A DNA stretch of 64,000 nucleotides from Fusobacterium massiliense (GTDB lineage Bacteria; Fusobacteriota; Fusobacteriia; Fusobacteriales; Fusobacteriaceae), in NCBI RefSeq assembly GCF_900095705.1, contig NZ_LT608325.1, positions 157,043 to 221,042 of the forward strand, written 5' to 3'. The notes beneath the pieces were generated by a model that worked only from the letters and a program-made list of their open reading frames with translations, was not told the origin of the DNA and did no database searches. A program made the translations under genes and the position numbers. Each line of letters starts with the position of its first letter. Position 1 is the first letter of the stretch. Shown piece after piece: positions 5,721-59,366 of the stretch.

Positions 5721-6059
5721 ATGGAACATATGAGATATATTAGAGTTCCAAAAGATATAAAAGCAATGAAAGATTATGATTATGGAGTTCAAAAAGATGA
5801 ACAAATGGAAGAATTAATTTTATCAGAGAGTCAATATAATGTATTTTGTACTTTAAAAGTATTCCAACTAATCAATGAAGAGTGTGGTGTGATTATTGAT
5901 GATTACGAAGAGGAAGTATTGTTATTAGAGAAAATACCATTAGCATTGAAGATTGTTAATAAAATAATTCAAAATTATAATGATATTAATCTACTAAAAT
6001 TTAAAAATATGTTGGAATTAGCTATAAAATATAGAACTATTGTAGGTTTTGATTTTTAA
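5721..6059 (+). CDS. putative immunity protein
   Basis: A 112-residue acidic helical protein with no signal sequence, starting after an AAGGGGTGA ribosome site directly downstream of the third toxin tip. Immunity function is inferred only from position. No family is recognised. Confidence 0.45.
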   Translation: MEHMRYIRVPKDIKAMKDYDYGVQKDEQMEELILSESQYNVFCTLKVFQLINEECGVIIDDYEEEVLLLEKIPLALKIVNKIIQNYNDINLLKFKNMLELAIKYRTIVGFDF

Positions 6060-6064
6060 ATAAT

Positions 6065-6153
6065 AATAAAATAGTTGTTTCACAAAGAAGAAATACAAGA
6101 GAAGCATTATTAAAAAGAATTGAAGAAAAGCATTCTAATAAAGAATTTTTTTA
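6065..6153 (+). pseudogene. short 3' gene remnant
   Basis: A frame of 29 codons including the stop (NKIVVSQRRNTREALLKRIE...) begins without a start codon or ribosome site just after the immunity-like gene. It looks like the tail of another lost toxin or immunity gene. Too short to identify. Confidence 0.25.
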
Positions 6154-6211
6154 AAGAAGGTTTCATAAAAAGTTAAGTAATATGATTTAGAATAAGATAA
6201 TTAGCTTAAGA

Positions 6212-6250
6212 AAAGCTATATAGATAAAAAATATTTATATAGCTTTTTTT
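6212..6250 (+). terminator. terminator at the end of the toxin array
   Basis: The inverted repeat AAGCTATATA / TATATAGCTT is followed by a T run. It ends plus-strand transcription before the convergent fru operon. Confidence 0.65.
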
Positions 6251-6284
6251 ATTGTATAAGAAAGTATAAAATTAATATAAAAAT

Positions 6285-6358
6285 AGTCTCCCGACGTCCG
6301 TATTACTCTGGAGAGTATTTCGGTGAGCTCGGAAGAGTCATACGGCTATCAAGAGACT
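6285..6358 (+). repeat. intergenic hairpin repeat, class B
   Basis: An imperfect inverted repeat of about 74 nt starting AGTCTCCCGACGTCCGTATT and ending ATACGGCTATCAAGAGACT. The inner stem is ACTCT/AGAGT (class B). The AT-rich flank AAGAAAGTATAAAATTAATA precedes it. It lies between the toxin-array terminator and the convergent end of fruA. Confidence 0.85.
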
Positions 6359-6379
6359 TTATTTATTATTTGCAAAGAA

Positions 6380-8251
6380 TTATATCTTATTTTTTCTTAA
6401 AGTTCCAAATATAAGAGCAGATACAATAGTACCTATTGCTATTGAAACTATAAAGAAAATTGCTGAGTGTACAGATGGCATTGCAGGAATTACAAATATT
6501 CCACCATGAGGGGCAGGAGCAGAAACATTCCAAAATTGAGTTAATCCTCCAGCAATAGCAGCACCAACTATACAAGAACTGATAACTTTTAAAGGTTCTT
6601 TAGCAGCGAAAGGTATTGCACCTTCAGTTATAAAAGATAGACCTAGTATGAAATTTGATAGAGTAGATTGTCTTTCTTTTTCATCAAATCTATTTTTAAA
6701 TAATAGCATAGCAAGAGCTATTGCTAAAGGTGGAACCATTCCACCAGCCATAACAGCAGCCATAAATGCACCATTTCCTGTATCTGTAAATACTCCTATA
6801 GAGAAAGTATAAGCTGCTTTATTTATAGGTCCACCCATGTCGACACTCATCATTCCACCAAGTAAAGCTCCAAGTATAACAGCATTAACTGTTCCCATAC
6901 TATTTAAGAAAGCTGCAACTTTAATGTTGATTTGTGTAAAGACAGGTCCAATAACGAAATACATTAAAATTCCTGTTATTGCCAATCCAAATATTGGATA
7001 AATAACCATAGATTTCATTCCGTCAAATTGTTTTGACATATTTTTTGTAGCTTTTTTTAAGAAAATTATAGAGTATCCTGCAAGGAACCCTCCAATTAAC
7101 CCACCTAAGAAACCGGCACCTTGACTTGCCATATATCCTGCAACAGCTCCAGGCATAAATCCTGGCTTATCTGCAATACTCATAGCAATAAATCCAGCAA
7201 GAACAGGGATTAAGAAATGGAAAGATGCAGCTCCTATATCAAACAGCAGTTTAAATAGAGTGCTATCATTTCCTAAGAATCTTTCTACAACGAATGAAAG
7301 AGCTAATAAAATACCTCCACCTATAACGAAAGGTAGCATATTAGAAACTCCACTCATAATACTTTTATAGATTATTCTTCCAATAGAATCATTTTCTTTT
7401 TTATCTTCTTCTGAATTATCATTAGTTTCAGCCTTAAATGTAGTAGCTTCTTTATTTAATATTTTATTTATTAAAGTTTCAGCATTTTTTATTGCATCAG
7501 CTGTACTTGTAACTATTGCTAAACTTCCATCAAAACGAGCTGTTTCAACTTTTTTATCGGCAGCAATGATAACCCCTTCAGCTTCTTTTATATCAGAACT
7601 ATTTATATGATTTTTAATACCGTCAGCACCGTTAGTTTCAACTTTTATTTCAACACCTAATTTCTTAGCTGCTTCAACAAGAGCTGATTCAGCCATATAA
7701 GTATGAGCTATTCCTGTTGGACAAGCAGTTACTGCTAATATTTTTTTTCTTTTATCATTATTTCCCTCATTTTTTATCTCATTTGTTTCTTGAGGTTTTT
7801 CTGAATATTTATCAACAAGTGCATATATTTCATCAGAATTATTACAAGTTAATAGTCCTTTTGTAAAATCATCATTTAACAACATTTTTGTAAGTTTTGC
7901 TAAAGTTTCAATATGCAAATCGTGAGCTCCTTCAGATGCTGCTATCATAAAAAATATATGAACAGGCTCTCCATCAAGTGAATCATAGTCTAAACCTTTA
8001 TGACTTCTTGCAAAAAGAACAGATGGTTTTACTACAACAGAAGTTTTAGCATGTGGCATAGCAATCCCTTCTCCAAGTCCTGTTGAACTTTTTTCTTCTC
8101 TTGCTAATATTAATTTTTTAAATTCATCAGCATCAGAAATGATTCCTTCTGTTTTTAACTTTTCTATCATTTCATCAATAGCTTCCATCTTTGTAGATGC
8201 TTTTAAGTCCATTATCATTAGTTCTTTACGTAATAAATCTTTAATTTCCAT
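6380..8251 (-). CDS. fruA: fructose PTS transporter, EIIA-EIIB-EIIC
   Basis: A 623-residue inner-membrane phosphotransferase component that imports fructose and delivers it as fructose 1-phosphate. The EIIA domain (1-150) has the phosphorylated His67 in GIAMPHAKT. The EIIB domain (168-265) has Cys177 in AVTACPTGIAHTYMAE. The EIIC domain (from about 290) is hydrophobic with the GGPINKAAYTF substrate-site region. The length matches the usual fused fructose permease. The start overlaps the end of fruK by 11 bases, so it is the last gene of fruR-fruK-fruA. Phosphate would come from the HPr and enzyme I genes at 10213-12479. Confidence 0.95.
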   Translation of the reverse strand: MEIKDLLRKELMIMDLKASTKMEAIDEMIEKLKTEGIISDADEFKKLILAREEKSSTGLGEGIAMPHAKTSVVVKPSVLFARSHKGLDYDSLDGEPVHIFFMIAASEGAHDLHIETLAKLTKMLLNDDFTKGLLTCNNSDEIYALVDKYSEKPQETNEIKNEGNNDKRKKILAVTACPTGIAHTYMAESALVEAAKKLGVEIKVETNGADGIKNHINSSDIKEAEGVIIAADKKVETARFDGSLAIVTSTADAIKNAETLINKILNKEATTFKAETNDNSEEDKKENDSIGRIIYKSIMSGVSNMLPFVIGGGILLALSFVVERFLGNDSTLFKLLFDIGAASFHFLIPVLAGFIAMSIADKPGFMPGAVAGYMASQGAGFLGGLIGGFLAGYSIIFLKKATKNMSKQFDGMKSMVIYPIFGLAITGILMYFVIGPVFTQINIKVAAFLNSMGTVNAVILGALLGGMMSVDMGGPINKAAYTFSIGVFTDTGNGAFMAAVMAGGMVPPLAIALAMLLFKNRFDEKERQSTLSNFILGLSFITEGAIPFAAKEPLKVISSCIVGAAIAGGLTQFWNVSAPAPHGGIFVIPAMPSVHSAIFFIVSIAIGTIVSALIFGTLRKNKI

Positions 8252-29779: not shown

Positions 29780-32700
29780 ATGAATAAAGAAAGAGATGAA
29801 AAACTACTTAAATCGTGGTTAAAGAAAAAAATAACTATAACAACGGGAACTGTTGTAGCTTTTTTAATTACAGGAAGCATAGGAGCAACTGTTGCTTATG
29901 GGGCAAATGCTGGAAATGCTACTGGAACAGGTGATCCAACATCAGTATCGTATGGACCAAGTGCTAATGCTCAAGGAATGGAGTCGATAGCAATAGGTTC
30001 ATCAGCAAAAGCAAAAGAAGGACAAAGTATTGCGATAGGGGCTAAATCAGAAGCGACAGGGAAAGATGGAGCATTAGCTGTAGGTAGAGAATCGAAAGCA
30101 AGAAAAAATTCTGATATTGTTTTTGGTGGAGAAGCTGAAACTCGAAATCAAGGTGCTGGGTATAGTATTGCCATTGGTGCTGGTGCTATGTCGGGTAGTA
30201 ACAAAGGTGTTTTAAATCGTAATGGTGGAGATGCAGGTGGTGTAGCTATTGGTACAGGGGCTTATACAGGTGTAAATAGAGGTAATGTTTCTATAAATTC
30301 TTCTGTTGCTGTAGGAGCCGGTGCTGGAGCAGGATTTAGAAAATTAGATGCTAATAACATGCCTGCTGGAAATGCGACAGATGTTGACAACAATGAAGAA
30401 GTACTAAAAAAGGCTTTTGGTGTTAAAAATGTTGAGGATTATCAAACAATAGCTGGAGATACTAACGGATATACAAATGTAGATATTAATGAAGCAACGT
30501 CATTAGGACGTAATGCACGTGCTATAGGAGACCAATCTGTTGCAATAGGAGCTCAAACTATTGCAGGTATGGGTGCTATTGCTTTAGGTGGAAATGATAT
30601 TACTCAATTTGCAAATAAAAAATATTACAAATCAACGAAAGAAAATTTTAAAGTTACTGAAACAACAGATCATAATCAAGATGCAAAAATATCTGATGAC
30701 ACGATTAGTGGTGCATATAAAAGACTTGTTGGCACTAACTTAGATACTGTATATAAAGCAACTTATGCACAAGATGGATCAGTAGTACTAGGGGCTCAAG
30801 CTCATTCAGGAACACCATTGGGAACAGCACTTGGTACGAATGCCTTAGTTCGTAAAGGAGCCTTTGGTGCAACAGCAATTGGTGCCGGTTCGCAAATTCA
30901 AGCAAATGCAGAAGCAGCAGTTGCAATAGGGATGGGTTCTGTTGCTAATGGAGCTTATGCTGTAGCTGCAGGAACTGCTTCACTTGCAGAATTTGGAGAC
31001 GTAGCAATAGGTTATCAAGCAAAAGCCTCTGGTAAAGATGGTGCTATTGCAATGGGACGTGCAACTAATGCTCAAGGGGACTCATCTGTAATGATCGGTG
31101 GAGCAAATATTAAATCTGCTTCACAACAAAATACAACTTTTGAAAAAGCAACTGGTCAAACAACTATGAAAACAATAACTGAAACAATAAATGGGAAGTC
31201 TGTTAAACGTGAATATAGTTTTGCTGAAACAAAAAATACTAATGGGACAGTAGCTGACGCATATAAAGAGTTGACTGGACGTAATATGGAAATTTCTGAA
31301 ATTAATTTTGGAGATAATGCAAATAAAAATGGACATGCTTCTACCTCTTTAGGTGTACACGCTTTATCAAAAGGAAACTTAGGAACAGCAATTGGGGCGA
31401 GTTCTCGTGCTGATGCGATAGGTTCTGTAGCTCTAGGTGCTGGAGCTCATGCAACTAGACAAAATGCTGTTGCAATTGGAACAGGTTCTACAACTGAATT
31501 AGTAGGTACACGTCAATTAAGTGTAAGTTATGATAAAGATGGTAATATTGTTGATGATAATTCAAAAGAAAAAGCTTACACATTTAACTGGGCAGGGGGT
31601 ATTAATACTTCTGAAGGGGACGTGGTTTCGTTTGGTAGTTCTGGGGCTGAACGTCAATTAAAAAATGTTGCAGCAGGTCGTGTGGCACAAGATTCTACTG
31701 ACGCAATCAATGGTTCTCAGTTGAACTCTATTGCTCAAAAAGTAGCTTCAGGATGGAATATTGGTGACAAGAATAAAGCTAAAGTTGCTGGTATTGGTAC
31801 TGAAGACCAAGTTAACTTTATTGATGGTAATGGAACAACTGTTACGGTTGAGAAACAAGAAGAAATAAAAAATGGAACTACTATAACAACACCAAAAGGA
31901 GCTAATGTTAAATTTGATGTAAAAGCTAAAGATGGATCTATTACATCTGATGCAAACGGTATTTCTGTCAATACAGATGGAACTACTATTACTAAAGATG
32001 CAGATGGAAAATTAAAAGTAAATACAGGGAATATTACAAATAATAATGGAGTACCAACAGTAGCAGATGCAGATAAAAATAAAATAGCAACTGTAGATAC
32101 AGTTACAAACGCTATTAAGGATTCTTATTGGATAGCTTCAGCAGAAAAAGATGGTACAAAAAAAGGAACAGATGATAATATAAAAGCGGGTACAAAAGTA
32201 ATATTTGATGCTGGGAAGAATATAGAAATAGAACATAGTACTGCAAATAAATTTACTTTTAAAACAGTAGACACTCCTGAATTTAAAGATATAACTTTAA
32301 ATGACGGAAGTAGTGCAACACCAAATAAAGTTAAATTAGCACCAACAACAGATGGTCTAAAATTGTCTAAAGGAGATAATGATAATTCTCCTGTAAAAAT
32401 TACAAATGTAAAAGATGGAGATATTTCAGCAAATTCTAAAGATGCTATTAACGGTAGTCAATTTCATAAAGTGGCTAAAAATACAATTAAATTAGCGGGT
32501 CAAAATGAAGGGGCTACAGCGACTGAAACAGAAAAACAAGAGTTAGATAAAACAGGTGGAATTAAATTTACTGTAAAATCTAGTGATGGAAAACTATTAG
32601 ATGTGGTAGCGGCTGGAGATACAATTACATTGACACCAAAAACAGCTAAACTTACAGCAGATACAAATGGAGTGCCACAAGCTAATACAACTAGTGGTAA

Positions 32701-35700
32701 ATTAGTAACAGCTGATGATTTAATAACAACATTACAAGGAATGGGTTGGAAAGCTACAGCAGATAAAGATGGTACTGGTACAGTAACAGGGAATGCAGAA
32801 GAACTTATAAAAGCAGGAGAAAAAGTAACATTTAAAGCAGGGAATAATTTAGCAATTACACAAGCTGGTAAAAACTTTATCTATTCCTTAAATCCAGTAT
32901 TAACTGGCTTAACAAGTGCTGAATTTAAAGATGCTGAAGGAAATACATCTAAACTTGATGGAACTGGATTAACAATAACACCTAAAGATACTACTAAAAA
33001 ACCTGTATCTGTAACAAAAGATGGAATAAATGCTGGTGGAAATACTATATCAAATGTAAAAAGTGGTTTAGAACCAATAAAAGCAGCAGATAATAAAGCA
33101 GCAGCAGGATTAGTAAACTTAAATACTCCAAATGTATCTGATAATAATGCAGTAACAGTGGGAGATATAAAAAATCTAGGATGGGTAGTTTCAAGTGATA
33201 AAACTACTGGAAATTTAACTGAACCATTTTCGGCACAAGTAAAAAATGCAAATGAAGTAGAATTTATAGGGAAAAATAATGCAGTAGTAAGTGCAACAAC
33301 TGATGGAAATGGGAAACATACTGTAACAGTAGATGTAACTGTACCAGATGTAGAAAAAGGAACAATAGAACTTGATGGAGATAATAAAGGAAAAGTTAAA
33401 TCGAAAACAGGAGATGGAGATAAATTTACAACAGTTGATACAGTAGTAAATGCTATAAATAGTGCAGCATGGAAAGCAACTTCAGGTAAAGAAGGTAGTG
33501 GAGCAGCAGCAACAGGACATACAGAGTCAGTTGAAGAAATTAAAGCAGGAGATACTGTAACATTTAAAGCAGGAGATAATTTAAAAATTAAACAATCTGG
33601 AAAAGAATTTACATATTCATTAAATCCAGAATTAACTAACTTAAGTAAAGTAGAAGTTAAAGATAATAAAGGAAATTCAGTAGTAACTACTCCAACAGGA
33701 ACAACTGTAACAGATAAAGATGGAAACACATCTAAACTTGATGGAACTGGATTAACAATAACACCTAAAGACACTACTAAAGAGCCTGTATCTGTAACAA
33801 AAGATGGGATAAATGCTGGTGGAAATGCGATATCAAATGTAGCAGGAAACTTAGATGGAGCTAAAAAAGATACAACTTCACCAAAAACATCATCTACAGG
33901 ACCATCAACAACAGATTTACCAAATATTGTAAATAATGCAGCAACAGTAGGAGATGTATTAAATGCAGGATGGAACCTACAAAATAATGGAACAGCAAAA
34001 GATTTTGTAAAACCTTATGATACAGTAAACTTTGTAGATGGATTAAATACAAAAGCAATAGTAACAACAGATGCAGAGGGAAAAGTAAGTAATGTACAAA
34101 TAGATGTAAAAGACTTACCAATAGCATATACAAATGAGGCTGGAGATAAAGTAGTAAAAGCAGCAGATGGAAAATACTATAAAGAAAGTGATTTAGAAGG
34201 AAAAGTATTTGATCCAAAAACTAAAACATTTAAAAATGCAGATGGAACAGCAGCAGCACAACCAACAGAAGTTACAAAAAATAATATAAAAACTAATTTA
34301 GTAAATCCAAATGCAGCAGAAGATAAGAAAGCGACAACAGATCCAAGTACATTAGGAAATGTTAAGAGTGGATTAGATACAATAAAAGATGCAAATGGAG
34401 GAACTACACCTAGCACAACAGATAAAGCAGCAGGATTAGTAAACTTAACTAATGATAAAGTGCCTGATAATAATGTAGCAACAGTTGGCGATTTAAGAAA
34501 AATGGGATGGGTAGTAAGCTCAGATAAGACAACAGATGGAACAGGAGAATATTCAGAGCAAGTAAAAAATGCAAATGAAGTAAGATTTGTTGGAAAAGGA
34601 ACAGCTACTGTAAGTGGAAAAACTGATGATAAAGGTGTAAGAACAATAACAGTAGAAGTAAATGACCAAGTATCAACAAATAATTCAGTTACACCAGTTG
34701 TATACACTAAAGCAGATGGTACGAAAGTATATCCAATAAAACAAAAAGATGGAACAACTAAGTTCTTTGAAAATCCAGATGGAACAGGAGCAGAAGTACC
34801 AAAAGAAGAAGTAAAAACATCAGTAAATGGACCAGATGGAACTAAGAATCCAACTACATTATCAAATGTAAAAGGAAATTTACCACAAGTAAATGATAAA
34901 GATAAAACAGTATTTGATCCAAAGACAGGAACAACAAAACCAGCTGATGATAAAAATACAACAAAAGCGCCTATTACAGCAGCAGAAGCAGCAGATATTG
35001 TAAAAAATGCAGGAAACAATGCAGCGACAGTAGGAGATGTATTAAATGCAGGATGGAACTTACAAAATAATGGAACAGCAAAAGATTTTGTAAAACCGTA
35101 CGATACAGTAAACTTTGTGGATGGATTAAATACAAAAGCGATAGTAACAACAGATGCAGATGGAAAAGTAAGCAATGTGCAAATAGATGTAAAAGACTTA
35201 CCGATAGCATATACAAATAAAGATGGAGATAAGGTAGTAAAAGCAGCAGATGGAAAATACTATAAAGAAAGCGATTTAGCAGGAAAAGTATATGATCCAA
35301 CAACTAACACATTTAAAAATGCAGATGGTACAGCAGCAACACAACCAACAGAAGTTGCAAAAGATAGTGTAAAAACTAATTTAGTAAATCCAAATGCAGC
35401 AGAAAATAAAGCAGGAGATCCAACACAATTAGGAAATGTTAAGAGTGGATTAGATACAATAAAAGATGCGAATGGAGGAACTACACCTAGTACAACAGAT
35501 AAAGCAGCAGGATTAGTAAACTTAACTAATGATAAAGTATCTGATAATAATGCAGCAACAGTTGGCGATTTAAGAAACATGGGATGGGTTGTAAGTTCAG
35601 ATAAAACAACAGGAGATTTAGGAACAGCTTACAATGACCAAGTAAGAAATGCTAATGAAGTTAAATTTGTTGGAATAAACGGAGCAACAGTTTCAGGAAA

Positions 35701-38700
35701 AACTGGAACAGATGGTGTAAGAACAATTACTGTTGATACAAAATCTTTAAAAGATAACACACCATTTGAATATGGAATAAAAGATCCAACAACAGGTATA
35801 ACAACTCCAGTAGAAAAAGCGACAGATGGAAAATATTATAAACCAGCAGACTTAAATGATGATGGAACACCTAAGGCAAATGCAACACCTCTATTAGATC
35901 CAACAAATAATGCTGATCCAAATAAGGATAATTTAGTTGTTAATGCTAAGGGAGATAAACCTCAAGAGGTTAAAAATCTAAAAGGAAACTTAGATCAAAC
36001 AGTTAATAAAGGTGATAAAGTTCAAGATGCAAATGGAAAACTTGGAACAACAACTGCAACAACACCAACAACTGAAAAATCAGCACCAACTAATGTTGAT
36101 ACAATCTACAACAATGCAGCAACAGTAGGAGATGTATTAAATGCAGGATGGAACCTACAAAATAATGGAACAGCAAAAGATTTTGTAAAACCTTATGATA
36201 CAGTAAACTTTGTAGATGGATTAAATACAAAAGCGATAGTAACAACAGATGCAGACGGAAAAGTAAGTAATGTACAAATAGATGTAAAAGACTTACCGAT
36301 AGCATATACAAATGAGGCTGGAGATAAAGTAGTAAAAGCAGCAGATGGAAAATACTATAAAGAAAGCGATTTAGAAGGAAAAGTATATGATCCAATAACT
36401 AAAACATTTAAAAATGCAGATGGAACAGCATTAGATAAACAACCAACAGAAGTTGCAAAAAATGATATAAAAACTAATTTAGTAAATCCAAATGCGGAAA
36501 AAAATAAAGCAGGAGATCCTACACAATTAGGAAATGTGGAAAATGGAGCAAAAACATTTGAACCAGCAAAAGATGCAGACAAAAAAGATTTAAAATTAGG
36601 AAATGATGGAAAATGGTATCCAGCAGATAAAGTTGGTAAAAATGGTGAACCAGAAAAAGGGGCAACACCAGTTACACCAGTAAATCCAGGTAAAGCAGGA
36701 TTAGTGGACTTCTCTAAATCTAACCCTACAAATGCAGCAACAGTAGGAGATTTACAAAATATGGGATGGGTTGTAAGTTCAGATAAAACAACAGGAGATT
36801 TAGAAAAAGCTTACAATGACCAAGTAAGAAATGCTAATGAAGTTAAATTTGTTGGTAAAAATGGAATACAAGTAAGTGGAAAAACTGATGATAAAGGTGT
36901 AAGAACATTAACATTTGAAATAGAAGCTGGAGAAGTAACTCCAACAGAAATAACAAAAGCTGATGGAACTAAACTTGTTAAAGTTGGAGATAAAGTTTAT
37001 AATCCTGAAGATATAGGAACAGATGGAAAACCTAAACAAGGAAAAGATCCAGTAGGAACTATAGCAAAAGATGGAAAAGTTTATAATAATGGAGATGTGA
37101 CAAACGGACAACCAAAAGAAGGAGTAAACCCTATAGATGGAATAACTGTAACTCCAAATAATGGATCTAAGTTTGTAACAGGAAACCAAGTAGCAGATGC
37201 TATTGAAAAATCAGGATTTGTTGTAGGAAAAAATAATAAAGCATTATCAGCAGCTGATTTCAAAAATGAAGATGAAAAAGTAAATCCTAATGATGAATTA
37301 AGATTTGCAGATGGAGATAATACTAATGTAAAACTTGCAACAAAAGAAGTGCTAGATGCCTCTGGAAAAGTTAAAACAGTAACAACAGTAAAAGTTGATG
37401 TGGTAGACTTACCTGTAAAATATACAGATGCAGATGGAAACATTGTTAAAAAAGGTGAAGATGGGAAATATTACGATCCTAAAGATTTAGACGGAAAAGT
37501 GTATGATCCAGCAACTAAGACATATAAAAATGCAGATGGAAAGCCTTTAGATAAACAACCTGAAGCAAAAGATAATGATAAAATAGTATCTAGTCTAGTA
37601 AATCCAAATGATGCAAAAGATGGTAAAGTTGGAACGCCAAGTACATTAACAAATGTAGCAAATGGAGCAAAAACATTTGAACCAGCAAAAGATGCAGACG
37701 GAAACGATTTAAAATTAGGAAATGATGGAAAATGGTATCCAGCAGATAAAGTTGGTAAAAATGGTGAACCAGAAGCAGGAGCAACACCAGTTACACCAGC
37801 AAATCCAGGTAAGGCAGGATTAGTGGACTTCTCTAAATCTAACCCTACAAATGCAGCAACAGTAGGAGATTTACAAAATATGGGTTGGGTTGTTTCAACA
37901 TCTGATACTGGATATAATGACCAAGTAAGAAATACAAATAAAGTTGATTTTAAACAAGGAACTGGTATTAAAATAAAAGGTGAAACAACAGCAGATGGAA
38001 CTCGTCAAATAACTATAGGATTAGATACAGGAAAAGTTACAAATGAAGTTACTATAACTAAGCCAAATGGTGAAAAAGTAAATGCAATAAAAGTTACTCA
38101 ACCAGATGGAACTGTTAAATATTATGAAAAAGATAAAGATGGAAAAGCTGACTTAAAGAAAGAAGTACCAGTTGGAACAGGAGATAATGATAATAAAGTA
38201 ACAGCTGATGACGGAAGTAGAGTAGTAACAGGAAACAGTGTAGCAACTGCTATTCAAGAATCTGGATGGAATGTTGGAAAAGCTGATGCTAAAGATGTTA
38301 CTAAAGCATTTGAAACAGAAGCTAAACTTCATGATAAAGTAAACCCTAATGATGATGTTAAATTTGTTGATGGAGATAATACAACAGTTTCTATGGTAAC
38401 TATTGACAGTCAAAATGATGATGGAACTAAGAAAGCAACAACATATATCAAAACAGATATTAACAGAGATATCAATATCGATAGTGTTACAGCTGGAGGT
38501 AAAAATGCAGATGGAACACCAGGTAAAGATGGGGCATTAACTGTTAAAGATAAAAATGGTAACGATAGAGTAAAAGTAGCTCCAAATGGAATGACTATTA
38601 CTCCAAATAAAGCTGATGGAACACCAGATCCAGATAAAGCAGTATCTCTAACAGATAAAGGATTAAACAACGGTGGAAATAATATCACAAATGTTAAATC

Positions 38701-39664
38701 TAATTTACCACAAGTAAAAGACGGAGATAAAAAAGCATATGATGTAAATGGAAATCCAATTGCAAATAAAAATAATACAGCAGCTCCTATTACAGCAGCA
38801 GATGCAGCAGATTTATTGAACCCTACAAAAGATGGAAAACCAAATCCAAATTTTGCAGGAAATAATGCAGCAACTTTATCTGATGTATTAAATGCAGGAT
38901 GGAACTTACAAAATAATGGAGCAGAAAAAGATTTTGTAAAACCATACGATACAGTAAACTTTGTAGATGGAACTAATACAACAGCAGTAGTAACTACATC
39001 TGATGATGGAACAACAAGTAAAGTAACATATAATGTATCAGGATTACCTATGTCATACACAGATAAAACTGGAAAACCAGTATCTAAAATAGGAGATAAA
39101 TATTATCCAGTAAATGAAAAAGGTGAAGCAATCAGTGAAAAAGGATTACCTGCTGTAGGTACAAATAAAGATGGAAAATTAGTAGATAGAGATGGAAATG
39201 TTATTGAACCAATTAATACAAAAGAAAATCCATTATCAACTAATTTAGTAAATCCAAATGTAGCAACAGATAAACAAACTACAACACCTACACAATTAGG
39301 AAATGTAGCACCAGCAGAAATTAGTCCAACATCTACACAAGCTGTAAATGGATCTCAATTATATCAAGTTGTACAAGAAATTAATCATGTAAATAATAAG
39401 GTTGATAAATTGGGAGATAGAGTAAACAAAGGTCTTGCAGGAGCAGCAGCTATGTCAGGAATTGAGTTTATGGAAATTGGAATTAACCAAGCAACAGTTG
39501 CAGCAGCAGTTGGAGGATATAGAGGAACACATGCAGTAGCAGTTGGTATAGAAGCAGCACCTACAGAAAATACAAGAGTAAATGCAAAAGCTTCATTAAC
39601 TCCAGGAGCTAGAACTGAAAGTATGTATTCAGTTGGAGCATCTTATAGATTTAACTGGAAATAA
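29780..39664 (+). CDS. giant trimeric autotransporter adhesin (YadA-like)
   Basis: A 3294-residue type Vc autotransporter. The signal region (1-42) has an extended charged start followed by a hydrophobic core ending near VAYGANA. Residues about 45-640 form a YadA-type head of repeated (S/A)xAIGxxAxA units. Neck motifs AINGSQ are at about 642 and 890, and AVNGSQLYQVV at about 3188. A very long stalk of near-identical blocks (GDVLNAGWNLQNNG..., VGDL.NMGWVVSSDKTTG) fills 900-3150. The last 80 residues are the membrane anchor (SGIEFMEIGINQ ... SVGASYRFNWK). Three chains form a surface fibre for adhesion. CbpF is a smaller relative known in Fusobacterium. Expression is probably phase-variable (G tract upstream). 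Confidence 0.95.
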   Translation: MNKERDEKLLKSWLKKKITITTGTVVAFLITGSIGATVAYGANAGNATGTGDPTSVSYGPSANAQGMESIAIGSSAKAKEGQSIAIGAKSEATGKDGALAVGRESKARKNSDIVFGGEAETRNQGAGYSIAIGAGAMSGSNKGVLNRNGGDAGGVAIGTGAYTGVNRGNVSINSSVAVGAGAGAGFRKLDANNMPAGNATDVDNNEEVLKKAFGVKNVEDYQTIAGDTNGYTNVDINEATSLGRNARAIGDQSVAIGAQTIAGMGAIALGGNDITQFANKKYYKSTKENFKVTETTDHNQDAKISDDTISGAYKRLVGTNLDTVYKATYAQDGSVVLGAQAHSGTPLGTALGTNALVRKGAFGATAIGAGSQIQANAEAAVAIGMGSVANGAYAVAAGTASLAEFGDVAIGYQAKASGKDGAIAMGRATNAQGDSSVMIGGANIKSASQQNTTFEKATGQTTMKTITETINGKSVKREYSFAETKNTNGTVADAYKELTGRNMEISEINFGDNANKNGHASTSLGVHALSKGNLGTAIGASSRADAIGSVALGAGAHATRQNAVAIGTGSTTELVGTRQLSVSYDKDGNIVDDNSKEKAYTFNWAGGINTSEGDVVSFGSSGAERQLKNVAAGRVAQDSTDAINGSQLNSIAQKVASGWNIGDKNKAKVAGIGTEDQVNFIDGNGTTVTVEKQEEIKNGTTITTPKGANVKFDVKAKDGSITSDANGISVNTDGTTITKDADGKLKVNTGNITNNNGVPTVADADKNKIATVDTVTNAIKDSYWIASAEKDGTKKGTDDNIKAGTKVIFDAGKNIEIEHSTANKFTFKTVDTPEFKDITLNDGSSATPNKVKLAPTTDGLKLSKGDNDNSPVKITNVKDGDISANSKDAINGSQFHKVAKNTIKLAGQNEGATATETEKQELDKTGGIKFTVKSSDGKLLDVVAAGDTITLTPKTAKLTADTNGVPQANTTSGKLVTADDLITTLQGMGWKATADKDGTGTVTGNAEELIKAGEKVTFKAGNNLAITQAGKNFIYSLNPVLTGLTSAEFKDAEGNTSKLDGTGLTITPKDTTKKPVSVTKDGINAGGNTISNVKSGLEPIKAADNKAAAGLVNLNTPNVSDNNAVTVGDIKNLGWVVSSDKTTGNLTEPFSAQVKNANEVEFIGKNNAVVSATTDGNGKHTVTVDVTVPDVEKGTIELDGDNKGKVKSKTGDGDKFTTVDTVVNAINSAAWKATSGKEGSGAAATGHTESVEEIKAGDTVTFKAGDNLKIKQSGKEFTYSLNPELTNLSKVEVKDNKGNSVVTTPTGTTVTDKDGNTSKLDGTGLTITPKDTTKEPVSVTKDGINAGGNAISNVAGNLDGAKKDTTSPKTSSTGPSTTDLPNIVNNAATVGDVLNAGWNLQNNGTAKDFVKPYDTVNFVDGLNTKAIVTTDAEGKVSNVQIDVKDLPIAYTNEAGDKVVKAADGKYYKESDLEGKVFDPKTKTFKNADGTAAAQPTEVTKNNIKTNLVNPNAAEDKKATTDPSTLGNVKSGLDTIKDANGGTTPSTTDKAAGLVNLTNDKVPDNNVATVGDLRKMGWVVSSDKTTDGTGEYSEQVKNANEVRFVGKGTATVSGKTDDKGVRTITVEVNDQVSTNNSVTPVVYTKADGTKVYPIKQKDGTTKFFENPDGTGAEVPKEEVKTSVNGPDGTKNPTTLSNVKGNLPQVNDKDKTVFDPKTGTTKPADDKNTTKAPITAAEAADIVKNAGNNAATVGDVLNAGWNLQNNGTAKDFVKPYDTVNFVDGLNTKAIVTTDADGKVSNVQIDVKDLPIAYTNKDGDKVVKAADGKYYKESDLAGKVYDPTTNTFKNADGTAATQPTEVAKDSVKTNLVNPNAAENKAGDPTQLGNVKSGLDTIKDANGGTTPSTTDKAAGLVNLTNDKVSDNNAATVGDLRNMGWVVSSDKTTGDLGTAYNDQVRNANEVKFVGINGATVSGKTGTDGVRTITVDTKSLKDNTPFEYGIKDPTTGITTPVEKATDGKYYKPADLNDDGTPKANATPLLDPTNNADPNKDNLVVNAKGDKPQEVKNLKGNLDQTVNKGDKVQDANGKLGTTTATTPTTEKSAPTNVDTIYNNAATVGDVLNAGWNLQNNGTAKDFVKPYDTVNFVDGLNTKAIVTTDADGKVSNVQIDVKDLPIAYTNEAGDKVVKAADGKYYKESDLEGKVYDPITKTFKNADGTALDKQPTEVAKNDIKTNLVNPNAEKNKAGDPTQLGNVENGAKTFEPAKDADKKDLKLGNDGKWYPADKVGKNGEPEKGATPVTPVNPGKAGLVDFSKSNPTNAATVGDLQNMGWVVSSDKTTGDLEKAYNDQVRNANEVKFVGKNGIQVSGKTDDKGVRTLTFEIEAGEVTPTEITKADGTKLVKVGDKVYNPEDIGTDGKPKQGKDPVGTIAKDGKVYNNGDVTNGQPKEGVNPIDGITVTPNNGSKFVTGNQVADAIEKSGFVVGKNNKALSAADFKNEDEKVNPNDELRFADGDNTNVKLATKEVLDASGKVKTVTTVKVDVVDLPVKYTDADGNIVKKGEDGKYYDPKDLDGKVYDPATKTYKNADGKPLDKQPEAKDNDKIVSSLVNPNDAKDGKVGTPSTLTNVANGAKTFEPAKDADGNDLKLGNDGKWYPADKVGKNGEPEAGATPVTPANPGKAGLVDFSKSNPTNAATVGDLQNMGWVVSTSDTGYNDQVRNTNKVDFKQGTGIKIKGETTADGTRQITIGLDTGKVTNEVTITKPNGEKVNAIKVTQPDGTVKYYEKDKDGKADLKKEVPVGTGDNDNKVTADDGSRVVTGNSVATAIQESGWNVGKADAKDVTKAFETEAKLHDKVNPNDDVKFVDGDNTTVSMVTIDSQNDDGTKKATTYIKTDINRDINIDSVTAGGKNADGTPGKDGALTVKDKNGNDRVKVAPNGMTITPNKADGTPDPDKAVSLTDKGLNNGGNNITNVKSNLPQVKDGDKKAYDVNGNPIANKNNTAAPITAADAADLLNPTKDGKPNPNFAGNNAATLSDVLNAGWNLQNNGAEKDFVKPYDTVNFVDGTNTTAVVTTSDDGTTSKVTYNVSGLPMSYTDKTGKPVSKIGDKYYPVNEKGEAISEKGLPAVGTNKDGKLVDRDGNVIEPINTKENPLSTNLVNPNVATDKQTTTPTQLGNVAPAEISPTSTQAVNGSQLYQVVQEINHVNNKVDKLGDRVNKGLAGAAAMSGIEFMEIGINQATVAAAVGGYRGTHAVAVGIEAAPTENTRVNAKASLTPGARTESMYSVGASYRFNWK
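33940..39060 (+). repeat. long stalk repeats within the adhesin gene
   Basis: A block encoding NNAATVGDVLNAGWNLQNNG, then PYDTVNFVDGLNTKAIVTTD and KDLPIAYTN, starts near 33940, 35021 and 36116, with a diverged copy near 38866. The first three are almost identical for about 300 bases. A second block (GNDGKWYPADKVGKNGEPE ... NAATVGDLQNMGWVVS) is duplicated at about 36545-36780 and 37655-37890. Recombination between them could change fibre length. Confidence 0.85.
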
Positions 39665-39678
39665 TTTTTTAAAATTTT

Positions 39679-39716
39679 GGCAGTCCGTATTAGTTTCTAA
39701 AACTTGTACGGCTGCC
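39679..39716 (+). repeat. miniature relative of the intergenic hairpin, end of adhesin gene
   Basis: GGCAGTCCGTATTAGTT / AAACTTGTACGGCTGCC with a 4-base loop. It keeps the CCGTATTAGTT and TACGGCTG core of the larger repeat but lacks the outer arms and inner loop. It may act as the transcription terminator of the adhesin gene. Confidence 0.65.
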
Positions 39717-39821
39717 ATAGTATTTTGATTGTTTTTAAGAAATTATAAATATAAAAATTAATTAACAGTATGATATAAAATATGATATAGTTTAATTAAA
39801 TATAATAAAAAAGGAGAGATT

Positions 39822-40508
39822 ATGAAAAAACTATTAAGAGTTGTTTTATCTTTAGTTTTAGGAGTATTTTTTATGGGATGTTTTGCTTCTAATGTTGATC
39901 TAGGAGCAAAAAAAGTTTTAGTAAAAGAATACAAAGGGTTAAAAATGGAATTAAGTCGTTCAGATTTAAGTGGAGTTTTCATTGATTTCCAAAATTTAAC
40001 TAATAAAGATATTACTATTGTATGGAAAGAATCAACATTGGGTGGATCTAAAATTATGAGACACGATGCTATAGTATATCCAGCATTGAATGCAGAAGAT
40101 ACAACTTTACCTGAATTAGAAAGAAGAACTTTCGTAATTCATAGATTAGAAGATTTTTATTATTTAGACCCAGTTTTATATGCAAAAGGTGGAGTTAGAA
40201 TAAAACCTTTAAAATATCCAGTTGAATTAAAATTGGTTATACAAACTAATGGACAAAAAGAAACTTTATCTGTTTTCTTAGATAATAACTATGAAAGTAA
40301 TGAGAATGCTAAAGATGAAAGATATGCAGAAGATGTTTATAGCAAAGAAAGAAAAGTAACAGCTGATGTTAAAGATAAAGACTACCATAAAAATATATTA
40401 AACAGAAGATTAAAAGTTGATGATTTACCAGAAGCAAAAATTGGTAAAGAACATAAACCAGTTGTAGATACATTATATATTAATCACAAAACTGGAGAAA
40501 GATACTAA
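39822..40508 (+). CDS. lipoprotein adjacent to the adhesin
   Basis: A 228-residue predicted lipoprotein: hydrophobic signal segment and lipobox FMGC (Cys20). The mature part has a beta-rich section (MELSRSDLSGVFIDFQNLTN) and a charged C-terminal third. No family is recognised. It has its own ribosome site (AAAGGAGAG) 158 bases after the adhesin, and a terminator. A role in assembly or quality control of the adhesin, as for the lipoprotein SadB with SadA, is possible but rests only on neighbourhood. Confidence 0.65.
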   Translation: MKKLLRVVLSLVLGVFFMGCFASNVDLGAKKVLVKEYKGLKMELSRSDLSGVFIDFQNLTNKDITIVWKESTLGGSKIMRHDAIVYPALNAEDTTLPELERRTFVIHRLEDFYYLDPVLYAKGGVRIKPLKYPVELKLVIQTNGQKETLSVFLDNNYESNENAKDERYAEDVYSKERKVTADVKDKDYHKNILNRRLKVDDLPEAKIGKEHKPVVDTLYINHKTGERY

Positions 40509-54924: not shown

Positions 54925-55734
54925 TTATTCCCATTTAATAGCTTCTAGTTCTTCAACATTTTTAACTTTTAATATTTTTTTAGTTATAGCAGTGTATTTG
55001 TTTTGTGCAGTTATAACTCTTAATATCCAAGAAAAATAAATTAAATTTAATTCTCCAAGAGATATATCTACAACAGAATCATCTTTTAATCTCCAAGGAG
55101 TTGTTAAAGTTTTTAAAAGATTTTTTAGCTTTCCAACTTTCATTGCACCTTTTATTTTTTCTTCCAGTTCTTCAGTAATTGCTATTCCCAATGTTACTAA
55201 GGCTTGTTTAATTACATTATAGTCTTCTGTTTCTCCAGCAATGTCTAACGCCATTTTTACACGCATAAAATTAATCTCATCGTATTCTTTCATTTGGAAA
55301 ATCTTACCATCATGCTCATAAGAACCAAACATCTTGTCCAACAGAATTTCTCTGAACTTGTGTTTAAAAGTTTTTTTAACATCTTCCATATTTATATCCC
55401 AAGTATGAGTTATAGTGTTCCAGGTATGATAAGAGCTTGGCTGTGGAATAAATTTTAATTTTTTATTTTCAATATACTCCCCAGGTGTTAATTGAATTTC
55501 AATATCTTCTTCTATAAGCTCATTTCTAGTCATTTCTCTTATACTATTAGTTGTTGCATCATAAGTTGGATATTTGAATGGTTCACTTTTCTCAACTACT
55601 ATATAGTCATCTTTATTTAATTCAGGATAATCTAAAAATAAATTATTATCCATAAAATCTCTAACTTCGTTTGCTGTTAGATTTACTGTGAACTTTATTT
55701 CTGCTTTTTTTTGCTTTGTATATATGTAGAACAT
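54925..55734 (-). CDS. tail-fibre-associated protein (DUF4376-like)
   Basis: A 269-residue protein. N-terminal third is beta-rich; the middle (PSSYHTWNTITHTWD, then VKKTFKHKFREILLDKMFGSYEHDGKIFQMKEYDEINF) resembles DUF4376/tail-fibre assembly proteins, where a W-rich linker precedes a helical segment. Probably a chaperone or minor fibre protein. Its upstream region contains a 15-bp inverted repeat that may be invertible. Confidence 0.55.
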   Translation of the reverse strand: MFYIYTKQKKAEIKFTVNLTANEVRDFMDNNLFLDYPELNKDDYIVVEKSEPFKYPTYDATTNSIREMTRNELIEEDIEIQLTPGEYIENKKLKFIPQPSSYHTWNTITHTWDINMEDVKKTFKHKFREILLDKMFGSYEHDGKIFQMKEYDEINFMRVKMALDIAGETEDYNVIKQALVTLGIAITEELEEKIKGAMKVGKLKNLLKTLTTPWRLKDDSVVDISLGELNLIYFSWILRVITAQNKYTAITKKILKVKNVEELEAIKWE

Positions 55735-55759
55735 AATTTTCTCCTTTCAATTTTGAATA

Positions 55760-55910
55760 GATTTTCAAATTTATTCAGTTTTTTATGGAATTTAATCACG
55801 ATTTGAAGTCTTTTGATAACATTTTCTTAGGTTTTGATAACAATAATAAGTTAAAAAATTACATCAAACTTAATAAAAATAACATTAAATTCTTTATAAA
55901 TTTGAAAATC
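55760..55910. repeat. 15-bp perfect inverted repeat flanking 121 bases (candidate invertible segment)
   Basis: GATTTTCAAATTTAT (55760-55774) and ATAAATTTGAAAATC (55896-55910). The GAAAATC end resembles the tail-fibre crossover site. Between them lie two copies of TTTTGATAACA. Placed just upstream of the 269-residue gene and just after the recombinase gene. Confidence 0.55.
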
Positions 55911-55924
55911 TCCATACTTTTTTT

Positions 55925-56899
55925 CTAAAAAATACCTAATTTTTTCCTTGCTACTATAAGAGTATTTCTTATTTCTGTAGCACTTGTTTTTTGTATATAA
56001 TGTTTACTTGTAACTCCACTACTGCTATGATTTGCATAACTAGAAGCAAGTCCTAATCCAGCTAAATTATTAATAAGATTTATGGCTGTTTTTCTTAATG
56101 TATGTGGATATAAATCTTCTATCCCTAGTATCTTCCCTAGCTTTTTTATTCTTTGCCTAATTGCTCCCTGTGTCATCTGTCTATATTCTTTCCTATACCT
56201 TGTGATAAATAGCCATTCAGATGTAATTCCTTTTTCTTCTCTTTCTTTTAACCATAATTTAAGTAATTCCTTACACTTTTGAAAAAAGAAAGCATTTACT
56301 ATATAACCTTCTTTTTCTTTAACATCTGTAAAGTATCCATTTTCCAAGTCTAATTGCTCTAATTTTAAGTTTTGAATTGCTGATATCCTACAGGCACTAT
56401 CTAAGAATAGTTCCCATAAAATTCTATCTTGTAAATCATATTTTTTAGTTTCAACCTGCATATATAAACGAACAGTCAGTATTTGCTCTGTTGTTAAAAA
56501 ATAGCTATTCCTTATCTTATCTCTTTCTGTAAATCTTAATCTATCCAATTTCTCTGAAAATGGATGATATTTGATTTTATTTCTTCTAACACACCAGGCA
56601 TAGAATGTTGATATTGCAGTGGTCTTATTCATTAAAGTTCTTTTACTATTTCCTAAATTCCTACAATAATTTCTATAATTTTCTATTATGCCAGGCATTT
56701 CTAATAAAGTGTCTTTACTTAATAAAAGCCTGTTTTTATATGACTTTTGAAACCACACTAGAAATAACTTAAAATTATTACAATATGTTTTATAAGTTGT
56801 TTCCCAAGTTTCCCAATTACTACTTTTACAACTATTTAAATACTCCAAATAAATTACCACATTTTCTTTTTTTAGATTTTCTAAAATCATTAATTGCAT
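55925..56899 (-). CDS. tyrosine recombinase, probable shufflon invertase (Rci-like)
   Basis: A 324-residue site-specific recombinase. Catalytic residues are complete: Arg171 (DSACRISAI), His266 and Arg269 (PHTLRKTA), His291 (ANHSS) and Tyr301 (KHYIQ). An N-terminal core-binding SAM-like domain covers about 10-110. Start ATG 56899 follows AGGAGGTTTAATT. It lies 48 bases from the silent tail-fibre cassettes, inside the late genes and far from the attachment site, so I infer that it inverts tail-fibre cassettes rather than integrates the phage. The integrase should be at the other prophage end. Confidence 0.8.
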   Translation of the reverse strand: MQLMILENLKKENVVIYLEYLNSCKSSNWETWETTYKTYCNNFKLFLVWFQKSYKNRLLLSKDTLLEMPGIIENYRNYCRNLGNSKRTLMNKTTAISTFYAWCVRRNKIKYHPFSEKLDRLRFTERDKIRNSYFLTTEQILTVRLYMQVETKKYDLQDRILWELFLDSACRISAIQNLKLEQLDLENGYFTDVKEKEGYIVNAFFFQKCKELLKLWLKEREEKGITSEWLFITRYRKEYRQMTQGAIRQRIKKLGKILGIEDLYPHTLRKTAINLINNLAGLGLASSYANHSSSGVTSKHYIQKTSATEIRNTLIVARKKLGIF

Positions 56900-56947
56900 A
56901 ATTAAACCTCCTATTTTTGATAAGTTAATTATACAATTCTTAAAATA

Positions 56948-57241
56948 ATGGAAAATCTAATCGGAGTTATAGAAGTTGATAATCAAAATTTCTCAATCAA
57001 AATTAATTATTTAAAAGAAAGAAATTTAATTCTTTCAGGGAATTTTATTTGTAAAAAAGAATTTAGAATACCAGTCAATGGTCAACTTGATGTTTTAAAT
57101 ACTTCTATGACACTCAATGGAAATATTCAAGCCATTGTGCTTGGAAACAATGGTAATAATTTTTATAAAACCATTAAAATTTCTATAGAAAATGGGAAAA
57201 TAATATCTGATGTTTCTAACTTTACACTATATGTTTTTTAA
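56948..57241 (+). CDS. silent tail-fibre C-terminal cassette A
   Basis: Encodes 97 residues beginning MENLIGVIEVD, opposite in direction to the fibre gene, with no ribosome site. Its first bases ATGGAAAATCTAATC match the fibre gene where the current tip starts (TTGGAAAATCTAATC), in the same codon phase. Inversion between the two sites would join this tip to the fibre. Its stop faces cassette B. Confidence 0.75.
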   Translation: MENLIGVIEVDNQNFSIKINYLKERNLILSGNFICKKEFRIPVNGQLDVLNTSMTLNGNIQAIVLGNNGNNFYKTIKISIENGKIISDVSNFTLYVF

Positions 57242-57252
57242 ATAGAATTTTT

Positions 57253-57549
57253 TTACATTGTTCCAATTGCTATAAAAGTTCCACTTACGGTTGTTAGATT
57301 AGTTCCATTATTATTAGCTCTGATTGTTATTTTGTTTTTTTCTCCATATGACATAATAGTTAAGTTACCAGGAGTTCCTGTATGCCACGGAGTTGCCATA
57401 ACACTAACATTTTTCAAAGTAACTGGGATAATTATATCTGTACTTTTGTTAAACTCAATATTTTTAAAAGTACCAAACACAATTGCAATATTTGAAAATT
57501 TTATTATATTTATTTCACTTTGATTACTAAAACTGAATAGATTTTCCAC
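57253..57549 (-). CDS. silent tail-fibre C-terminal cassette B
   Basis: Encodes VENLFSFSNQSEINIIKFSN... to IAIGTM, same direction as the fibre gene. It begins at the palindromic site 57541-57559 and shares that site head-to-head with cassette C. The open frame extends upstream to 57711 but that part is antisense to cassette C and not meaningful. End motif 'ITIRANN..TNLTTVSGTFIAIG' looks like a compact beta-sandwich tip. Confidence 0.7.
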   Translation of the reverse strand: MENLFSFSNQSEINIIKFSNIAIVFGTFKNIEFNKSTDIIIPVTLKNVSVMATPWHTGTPGNLTIMSYGEKNKITIRANNNGTNLTTVSGTFIAIGTM

Positions 57550-57559
57550 TGTGGAAAAT
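57541..57559. repeat. palindromic crossover site between cassettes B and C
   Basis: ATTTTCCAC-T-GTGGAAAAT, a perfect 9+1+9 palindrome. Each arm carries the TGGAAAAT start of one cassette. Confidence 0.75.
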
Positions 57560-57790
57560 TTCTTTAAAAACAGAGAGATTATTTTAACAAAAGACTTAGA
57601 TAGAGATTTATTTTCTAGATATTCTGGGACTATCCCATCTGACATATTTCCATCTAAAATAATTAATATAATCTTAGAAGAGGGAAGTGGAGCCCCAGCT
57701 GGATACGACATCGTTGGAAATAAAATTACAGCCTTTTATTTTAATTATCAACTAACAGCAAAAAGAAAAGCTAAGATTATATATTATTAA
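57551..57790 (+). CDS. silent tail-fibre C-terminal cassette C
   Basis: Encodes VENFFKNREIILTKDLDRDL... to KAKIIYY, 79 residues, plus strand, starting at the palindromic site (GTG GAA AAT). No ribosome site. The stop codon is next to the following crossover site. Would be expressed after inversion. Confidence 0.72.
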   Translation: MENFFKNREIILTKDLDRDLFSRYSGTIPSDIFPSKIINIILEEGSGAPAGYDIVGNKITAFYFNYQLTAKRKAKIIYY

Positions 57791-57791
57791 T

Positions 57792-57808
57792 TTTTCCACT
57801 GTGGAAAA
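57792..57808. repeat. palindromic crossover site before cassette D
   Basis: TTTTCCAC-T-GTGGAAAA, 8+1+8 palindrome, same core as 57541-57559. Confidence 0.75.
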
Positions 57809-58145
57809 TCTATCAATATCTGCTGGTACTGAAATTTTAGTAAAAAATTTTTCTAATAAAAGTAACTTTACAGTACAAGAAATTATTTGGACAGAAGAAG
57901 AATACAGAAAAGCTATTAAAAACTATGATTTTATTAGTCTATATTTTTCTTCTAGTTATATTTCTATTCAAGGTCCTTTACTTACTAAAACGACAAGACC
58001 TTATGTTTCAATCCCATCAGCAAATGGAAATACGTTTTATCTATTTCTTGCAGAAGATAGAGATTTTATAAGAGTTATGAATACAGTAAATTTTAGTCCT
58101 ATTAGATGTAATGAACTAAAAATTTATGGATTTAAAATTAGATAA
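57801..58145 (+). CDS. silent tail-fibre C-terminal cassette D
   Basis: Encodes VENLSISAGTEILVKNFSNK... to ELKIYGFKIR, 114 residues, plus strand, starting GTG GAA AAT CTA at the palindrome. No ribosome site. Ends 66 bases from the tail-to-tail end of the expressed fibre gene. Confidence 0.72.
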   Translation: MENLSISAGTEILVKNFSNKSNFTVQEIIWTEEEYRKAIKNYDFISLYFSSSYISIQGPLLTKTTRPYVSIPSANGNTFYLFLAEDRDFIRVMNTVNFSPIRCNELKIYGFKIR

Positions 58146-58211
58146 AAACGTCGGTTGTATAGATACTAAATGAATTTAAGCTAGCTATAATATTTCCATT
58201 ATTTACAAAAA

Positions 58212-59366
58212 TTAAATATAAGCAACATTAATGGTAGCATTTCGAGGATTACTCGAAGGTACAATGTGCCCAATAGCTGCGGTATCTGATTCATAATTGT
58301 ATGTAACATATTCGCAATAACCAGAAGTCTGTGCTGCACTTATAGATACGATAGTAGAATTTGAAGGAATTCCAATTTTGTTTTTAAAATTGCTGATTAC
58401 AATTTCTGAAAAAACTAATATTCCGTTCTGTATTACTAAAGAGTCTTGTGTTATTATAGAATAACTTTTAATTTTGATTAGATTTTCCAATTTCTTACGA
58501 TTTTGATAAATAGATAATTCTTCAAAGTCTGCATTTGGAACACTCACTCTACTAGTTTGGCTTTTTAAACAATAGTAATATTTTTGATTTCTTGGAAAAT
58601 AATATACATTTCCTGCCACTGCCTGTTCAACAGGAAACTCTCCATTATTTTCTCCTAAAATTCCATTAAGATTTTGTATTAATTGATTTTCTTTATTATT
58701 AAGACTTTCATATAAGTATTTCCAAGTTATTGGAATTAATTGTTCATCAGGAGTTCCTGATGTTGCTTCCCAAGTTCTATTTCCACCAATATTTTTATAC
58801 CAATGTCCATTGTCTGCTAGATATTGTTTATCTGCTTCTAAGTTATTTCTTCCTTTCAAAGTACCAACAGCTGTTAATCCTGTTTCTGTATAGACTTGGT
58901 TAGCAATATCTCTTGTTAAATAAATAATACTATCTCTTACATATATTTCAGCTTCTATATCACTTGAAATAGCCATATAGATATCTTGAATAGATTCATA
59001 TGTTTTTCCTAATCTGTTGTTTGGAAAAGTATCAGCAGATACAGCTGTTGCATATGAATAAAGAATTTCTGTTATATCTCCTTCAATTTTTGCGTATACC
59101 CCAAATTCTTCTGTTTGAAAAGATTGTTCTACATTTTCATTTGATATTTGTACTGTTAAAACAGCAGTACCATTATCATTTGTTATATTCATTACATTTA
59201 AATCAAGTTTTTTATTTTTTAATTCAGTTACTTCTCTTAAATTTCCTGAATGTTTTTGATCTCCAAATGCTGCCTTGGTAAATAGAACTTTACCTTCCCC
59301 AGCTAATGCTCTTGCTAAAAGGTTTCTTCCAGCATTTGTAATGATGTGACTATTAAAATCAGCCAT
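58212..59366 (-). CDS. phage tail fibre with exchangeable C-terminal tip
   Basis: A 384-residue tail fibre. The N-terminal half (ITNAGRNLLARALAGEGKVL, FTKAAFGD, then QTEEFGVYAKIEGD) is the baseplate-attachment domain of P2 gpH-like fibres. A middle part contains YLADNGHWYKNIGGNRTWEA and a collar-like region. The tip (from Leu-Glu-Asn-Leu at 58490) is cassette E. ATG 59366 is chosen because GAGGTG lies six bases upstream; GTG 59375 would add three residues. It overlaps gpI by 8 bases. Determines phage adsorption, and its tip is probably switched by DNA inversion. Confidence 0.85.
   Translation of the reverse strand: MADFNSHIITNAGRNLLARALAGEGKVLFTKAAFGDQKHSGNLREVTELKNKKLDLNVMNITNDNGTAVLTVQISNENVEQSFQTEEFGVYAKIEGDITEILYSYATAVSADTFPNNRLGKTYESIQDIYMAISSDIEAEIYVRDSIIYLTRDIANQVYTETGLTAVGTLKGRNNLEADKQYLADNGHWYKNIGGNRTWEATSGTPDEQLIPITWKYLYESLNNKENQLIQNLNGILGENNGEFPVEQAVAGNVYYFPRNQKYYYCLKSQTSRVSVPNADFEELSIYQNRKKLENLIKIKSYSIITQDSLVIQNGILVFSEIVISNFKNKIGIPSNSTIVSISAAQTSGYCEYVTYNYESDTAAIGHIVPSSNPRNATINVAYI
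58482..58490 (-). promoter_or_regulatory. crossover site inside the expressed fibre gene
   Basis: TTGGAAAAT on the minus strand, followed by CTAATC: 14 bases (TGGAAAATCTAATC) are shared with cassette A. This is the junction between constant and variable fibre parts. Confidence 0.65.

Follow-up and report, generated by a model that had tools for sequence, protein, structure and literature searches.

How does a prophage vary the tip of its tail fibre, and which enzyme would carry out the exchange? This question is raised by a 64,000-nucleotide stretch of the Fusobacterium massiliense genome (contig NZ_LT608325.1, positions 157,043 to 221,042; hereafter the window, in whose coordinates positions are given), in which a prophage tail-fibre gene, a set of silent tips and a tyrosine recombinase gene lie side by side. 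The locus is very probably a phage shufflon for the receptor-binding tip of the tail fibre, driven by a XerA-like tyrosine recombinase of its own. In the proposed mechanism, the recombinase would join pairs of inverted sites of about 14 bp (ARATT-N4-AATYT, here with the four-base centre GGAA) at the first codons of the tips; inversion would put another tip in frame behind the constant fibre body, and the previous tip would fall silent. The case is built on the anatomy of the locus, on a site and a codon phase shared by the tips, on exact inversions in homologous prophages, on the exchange of tips and on a separate integrase, all of which are established from sequence.

Anatomy of the tail-fibre locus

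The fibre gene, on the minus strand with its ATG at 59366, encodes a body that ends in ...NRKK and continues from 58490 into the expressed tip as TTG GAA AAT CTA ATC, the TTG being that of TTGGAAAATCTAATC (58490, minus strand). Four silent segments of 79-114 amino acids (aa) sit between the fibre and recombinase genes and all open with xTG GAA AAT, one at ATGGAAAAT (56948, plus strand) and three at GTGGAAAAT (57549, minus strand; 57551 and 57801, plus strand); all five tips begin with x-E-N in one common codon phase. An earlier note on this DNA had placed one expressed and four silent tips at these coordinates and in this shared phase, all of which holds on re-reading the sequence. The motif TGGAAAATYT is present five times in positions 56901-58500, compared with a mean of 0.05 and a maximum of 2 in 5000 dinucleotide shuffles of this 1.6-kb segment. 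The whole genome (1.81 Mb) has the head-to-head form of the site, TTTTCCACWGTGGAAAA, at only 2 places, and these are both at the shufflon. A Shine-Dalgarno sequence is present at the fibre and recombinase genes and at none of the silent tips. The possibility that the plus-strand cassettes are independent genes with their own starts, named in the earlier note as a finding that would refute the shufflon reading, was rejected on this ground and because the first base of the apparent start codon is set by the place and not by the tip.

Inversions and tip exchange in homologous prophages

It had been proposed that inversion by the adjacent tyrosine recombinase swaps the tips, and this is now strongly supported both by exact inversions in one genome and by changes between the expressed and the silent state of tips among relatives. 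Genome G004, of the same family, carries a homologous system (recombinase identity 50%) in three prophage copies (C1, C3 and C4). Outside the recombining segments these copies are nearly all 100% identical over ~17 kb, and 99.5-100% identical over about 39 kb. An exact inversion of 1001 bp separates one pair and an exact one of 2277 bp another; the remaining pair shows both, and the ends are always ATTAGAGAATTT. Three different tips are therefore read, one fibre body being joined to LENLLKSKE, LENLLKIETLN or LENLVGSNG. Alternative arrangements are present within one sequenced genome, whether the copies represent three integrated prophages or assembly variants.

The wider comparison covers 24 loci with 94 tips, the three G004 copies being counted as loci. 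At least two loci share each of 22 tip families, and half of these (11/22) have an expressed member in one locus and a silent one elsewhere. The LIKIKSY family, expressed in the window, is silent in the relatives L003 and L025; in L003 the expressed family is FIKV, which is silent in L012 and in the phage Funu1; and in L012 it is LFKYS, which L003, L025 and Funu1 carry in the silent state.

Regarding the structure of the tips, the model of the window's expressed tip is beta-rich (mean predicted local distance difference test score, pLDDT, 84.5), and a structural search with it gave no significant match. The LFKYS family of the relatives (model pLDDT 76) matches the C-terminal domains of phage K gp144 and of the phi812 baseplate (Foldseek E 7e-4), which supports a receptor-binding role, short of proof.

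The site code and the position of crossover

The site model was built on part of the loci, and a search with the centre left free followed. The general form ARATT-N4-AATYT fits all systems, with a left half that is loose at the inner sites, and its codons give Leu-x-Asn-Leu/Phe or, in silent positions, Val/Met-x-Asn. The centre is uniform within a locus: GGAA in the window group, GAAT in the group of phage phiRTG5, AGAG in G004, and AGAA, ACAG or GGAT elsewhere. Among loci outside model building, the free search recovered GAAT in L013, ACAG in L051, AAGC in L057 and AGAG in L058. Since the shufflon centre is never self-complementary, the sites have polarity. Within the clade of the window, the base that precedes TGGAAAAT is fixed by place (T at the body site and mostly G at inner ones) and the bases after it follow the tip; crossover is therefore placed within the 8 bp of TGGAAAAT. 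An explicit code of this kind predicts which sites can recombine. In L014 (IMG/VR 2636415890), the body site and the recombinase-proximal site have unlike centres, GGAA and GAAA, and the site model predicts that this locus may be locked.

A further, large array lies 3.5 kb upstream of the recombinase in L051 (G017:C2), with about 10 tips and the centre ACAG; some of its tips are repeated, and the stretch is partly masked.

Alternative explanations

Several points weigh against the shufflon reading of this locus. The window prophage has been seen in one arrangement, and its nearest relative, L003, has the same ends with a largely different tip set. The near-identical pairs L026/L027 and L020/L024 are without tip inversion. 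The three copies in G004 may be distinct prophages, or one prophage in several assembly variants, and the G004 system is only a homologue of that in the window. Finally, it is inferred from sequence that this recombinase is the catalyst, that the strain switches and that receptor binding or host range is altered.

A former shufflon that is now locked in this strain would account for the single arrangement, and we regard it as improbable. The locus does contain a degenerate sixth site (57790-57803), which is the leftover of a lost partner tip, the left half-sites of the inner sites are off consensus, and a possible precedent is found in L014. Against this, the recombinase is intact with all its catalytic residues, GGAA is kept at all five tip sites, and all tips are open.

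The relatives bear on another explanation, namely that homologous recombination or horizontal cassette replacement between phages swaps the tips, instead of site-specific inversion. The fibre body of L003 is 98% identical to that of the window up to the junction and its recombinase 99% identical; overall, the ends are 98-100% identical and the tip sets mostly unlike, from which it follows that tips are also gained and lost. As the source of the exchange, inter-phage recombination is nevertheless highly improbable, since the G004 inversions are exact and lie within the locus without any other change, RecA-type recombination would need more than the 8-12 bp of the crossover core, and the recombinase is always adjacent. 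The rearranged order between constant ends that the earlier note had suggested looking for in related prophages was seen in the G004 copies; L003 kept the ends with other tips.

A recombinase distinct from the integrase

The complete tyrosine recombinase that had been reported 48 bases from the array could be confirmed: its start lies 48 nt from the nearest silent tip, and the catalytic residues R171, K196, H266, R269, H291 and Y301 are present and invariant in 8 relatives. Among solved structures, the closest chains are those of XerA and of a XerC-like protein. No serine invertase lies next to the fibre gene, the adjacent enzyme being a PF00589 protein and the genome's only PF00239 match being on another contig.

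At its other end, the prophage encodes a second enzyme, a 405-aa integrase beside rplT (C4:253860-255077; rplT named from its translation). Funu1 has a serine recombinase/resolvase at its genome end, and the Mu-like phiRTG5 brings a transposase and a DNA transposition protein of its own. The presence of separate integration enzymes in these three phages indicates that the shufflon recombinase is not the integrase. That it is the prophage integrase after all, beside tips that are unrelated small genes or decayed duplications, is scarcely credible: it is annotated as 'integrase' in Funu1 and phiRTG5 and matches phage integrase models, but these separate enzymes, the one-phase sites at every tip start, the exact G004 inversions and the silent tips without ribosome-binding sites all speak against it.

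A search of genome contigs with the single protein gave no match, and one with an alignment gave one metagenome-assembled genome; in the collections searched, the recombinase found no Bifidobacterium match. Distant relatives in Lysinibacillus, Brevibacillus, Alicyclobacillus and Clostridioides phages are annotated at positions away from tail-fibre tip arrays. In Lysinibacillus phage LC76P1 (L060), a 37%-identical recombinase (6001-6951) is located amid unnamed genes, just before a very long open reading frame (ORF) and with no annotated tip array; this locus may hint at the origin of the recombinase family.

A second invertible element beside the recombinase

A second invertible element is situated between the 3′ end of the recombinase gene and the gene that follows; together with the degenerate sixth site, it adds to what the earlier note had described. 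None of 1000 shuffles contained a repeat as long as its 16-bp inverted repeat, which is found nowhere else in the genome. The relatives have an element of 150-200 bp in the same place, bounded by an inverted repeat of shufflon-type half-sites with another centre. Between G004 copies the element (168 bp) is exactly inverted, and in other pairs identity is higher in the inverted than in the direct comparison (95% vs 70% in L020/L022, 91% vs 66% in L015/L016 and 83% vs 68% in L003/L012).

Wherever both centres of a locus could be read, that of the second element is unlike that of the shufflon, and the half-sites of both co-vary across clades. Because the centres always differ while the half-sites co-vary, one recombinase with two insulated classes of site is suggested, and the second element is probably served, judging by these sites, by the shufflon's own recombinase. 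On balance, we lean towards a single recombinase operating two mutually insulated inversion systems, a many-way tip shufflon and a two-site switch of ~150-200 bp, that would be separated by the 4-bp centre alone; the switch would set how the recombinase, or else the tail accessory gene downstream, is expressed or processed. This raises a testable question: is a 4-bp centre alone enough to separate two inversion systems of one recombinase?

As to what the element contains, no sigma-70-like promoter consensus was found in the window's copy and only sporadic ones in relatives. The search for a conserved RNA hairpin showed an inner part that is not consistently structured; the fold of the whole element is strong through its outer repeat (z about -2 to -8). 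In L046, L047 and L048, a short ORF, MDKQPIAFTILLALEAAETYKNC..., preceded by a GAGG motif, can be read in one orientation of the 168-bp element; it is not conserved in the window.

Relation to known systems

The earlier note had taken a tyrosine-recombinase shufflon of this type to be undescribed, a claim that falls because Rin is already known. Mavrich et al. (2018) described Rin in Bifidobacterium prophages, where a tyrosine recombinase shuffles the C-termini of a receptor-binding protein and inversions were observed (PMC6109161), and a 2022 paper reported a Rin-type shufflon in Eggerthella lenta prophages (PMC8778435). Both Rin and the window system reside in a prophage, use a tyrosine recombinase apart from the integrase, combine the constant N-terminus of a receptor-binding protein (in the window, a putative one) with several variable C-termini, and have a very short crossover site; in Rin the C-termini are about 95-100 aa long, the site is 11 bp, and orders are rearranged between relatives and in induced virions. 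On the other hand, the phylum and the fibre are different, the Rin site TTCCCTAACCC is unrelated to ARATT-GGAA-AATYT, and the window has head-to-head palindromic site pairs as well as a second invertible element with its own centre beside the recombinase.

The Rci shufflon of IncI plasmids (the PilV tips of R64) likewise employs a tyrosine recombinase and several inverted short sites to exchange C-terminal adhesin tips. It differs in serving a plasmid pilus instead of a phage tail and in its site, a 19-bp sfx with a 7-bp core; with its phage-tail context and different sites, the window locus is not a pilV shufflon of this type. The Min, Gin and Cin systems (of p15B, Mu and P1) also swap the C-termini of phage tail fibres through DNA inversion, using serine recombinases (PMC6109161) in place of the window's tyrosine recombinase.

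No paper linking Fusobacterium with a shufflon, and no description of the N4 site code or of a second insulated element, was found in the literature search. The tyrosine-recombinase tail shufflon is already known as a class; new here is the second invertible element, which is probably insulated from the shufflon. Tail-tip shufflons are hereby placed in prophages throughout Fusobacteriota. Among these is the F. nucleatum group, which is oral and associated with colorectal cancer and in which phage host range is poorly understood. The phage studied here is apparently able to change what its tail binds.

Feature coordinates and neighbouring genes

The features of the locus are collected in the table. 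The fibre body also gave a weak match to the N-terminal Pfam model Phage_tail_fib, and the phiRTG5 ORF that corresponds to the downstream gene carries the label DUF4376.

Table. Features of the tail-fibre locus and its surroundings, in window coordinates.
Feature	Position	Strand	Support or remark
Downstream gene, 269 aa, probable tail / tail-fibre accessory protein	54925..55734	-	phrog_2837 tail E 8.5e-6
Second element (153 bp) with the exact 16-bp inverted repeat AGATTTTCAAATTTAT at its ends	55759..55911		shufflon half-sites, centre TGAA
Tyrosine recombinase, 324 aa, inferred shufflon invertase	55925..56899	-	Pfam PF00589 E 1.5e-21
Silent tip 1, 97 aa, nearest recombinase	56948..57241	+	site 56945-56958
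Silent tip 2, 98 aa	57253..57549	-	site 57539-57552
Silent tip 3, 79 aa	57551..57790	+	site 57548-57561; head-to-head with tip 2
Degenerate tip-less sixth site GTGGAAAAATT	57790..57803	-	only 15 codons after
Silent tip 4, 114 aa	57801..58145	+	site 57798-57811; no Shine-Dalgarno
Expressed tip LENLIKIKSY..., 92 aa, in-frame fusion to body	58212..58490	-	homologues silent in L003, L025
Body recombination site AAATT-GGAA-AATCT	58480..58493	-	
Constant body of tail-fibre gene (collar/fibre N-terminal part)	58491..59366	-	phrog_23632 E 5e-117; phrog_19961 tail fiber E 3.5e-64

Elsewhere in the window, at ~31000-40000 on the plus strand, a long repetitive surface-protein-like ORF with repeated DGKYYK and DGKWYPAD motifs was met among the matches to TGGAAAAT.
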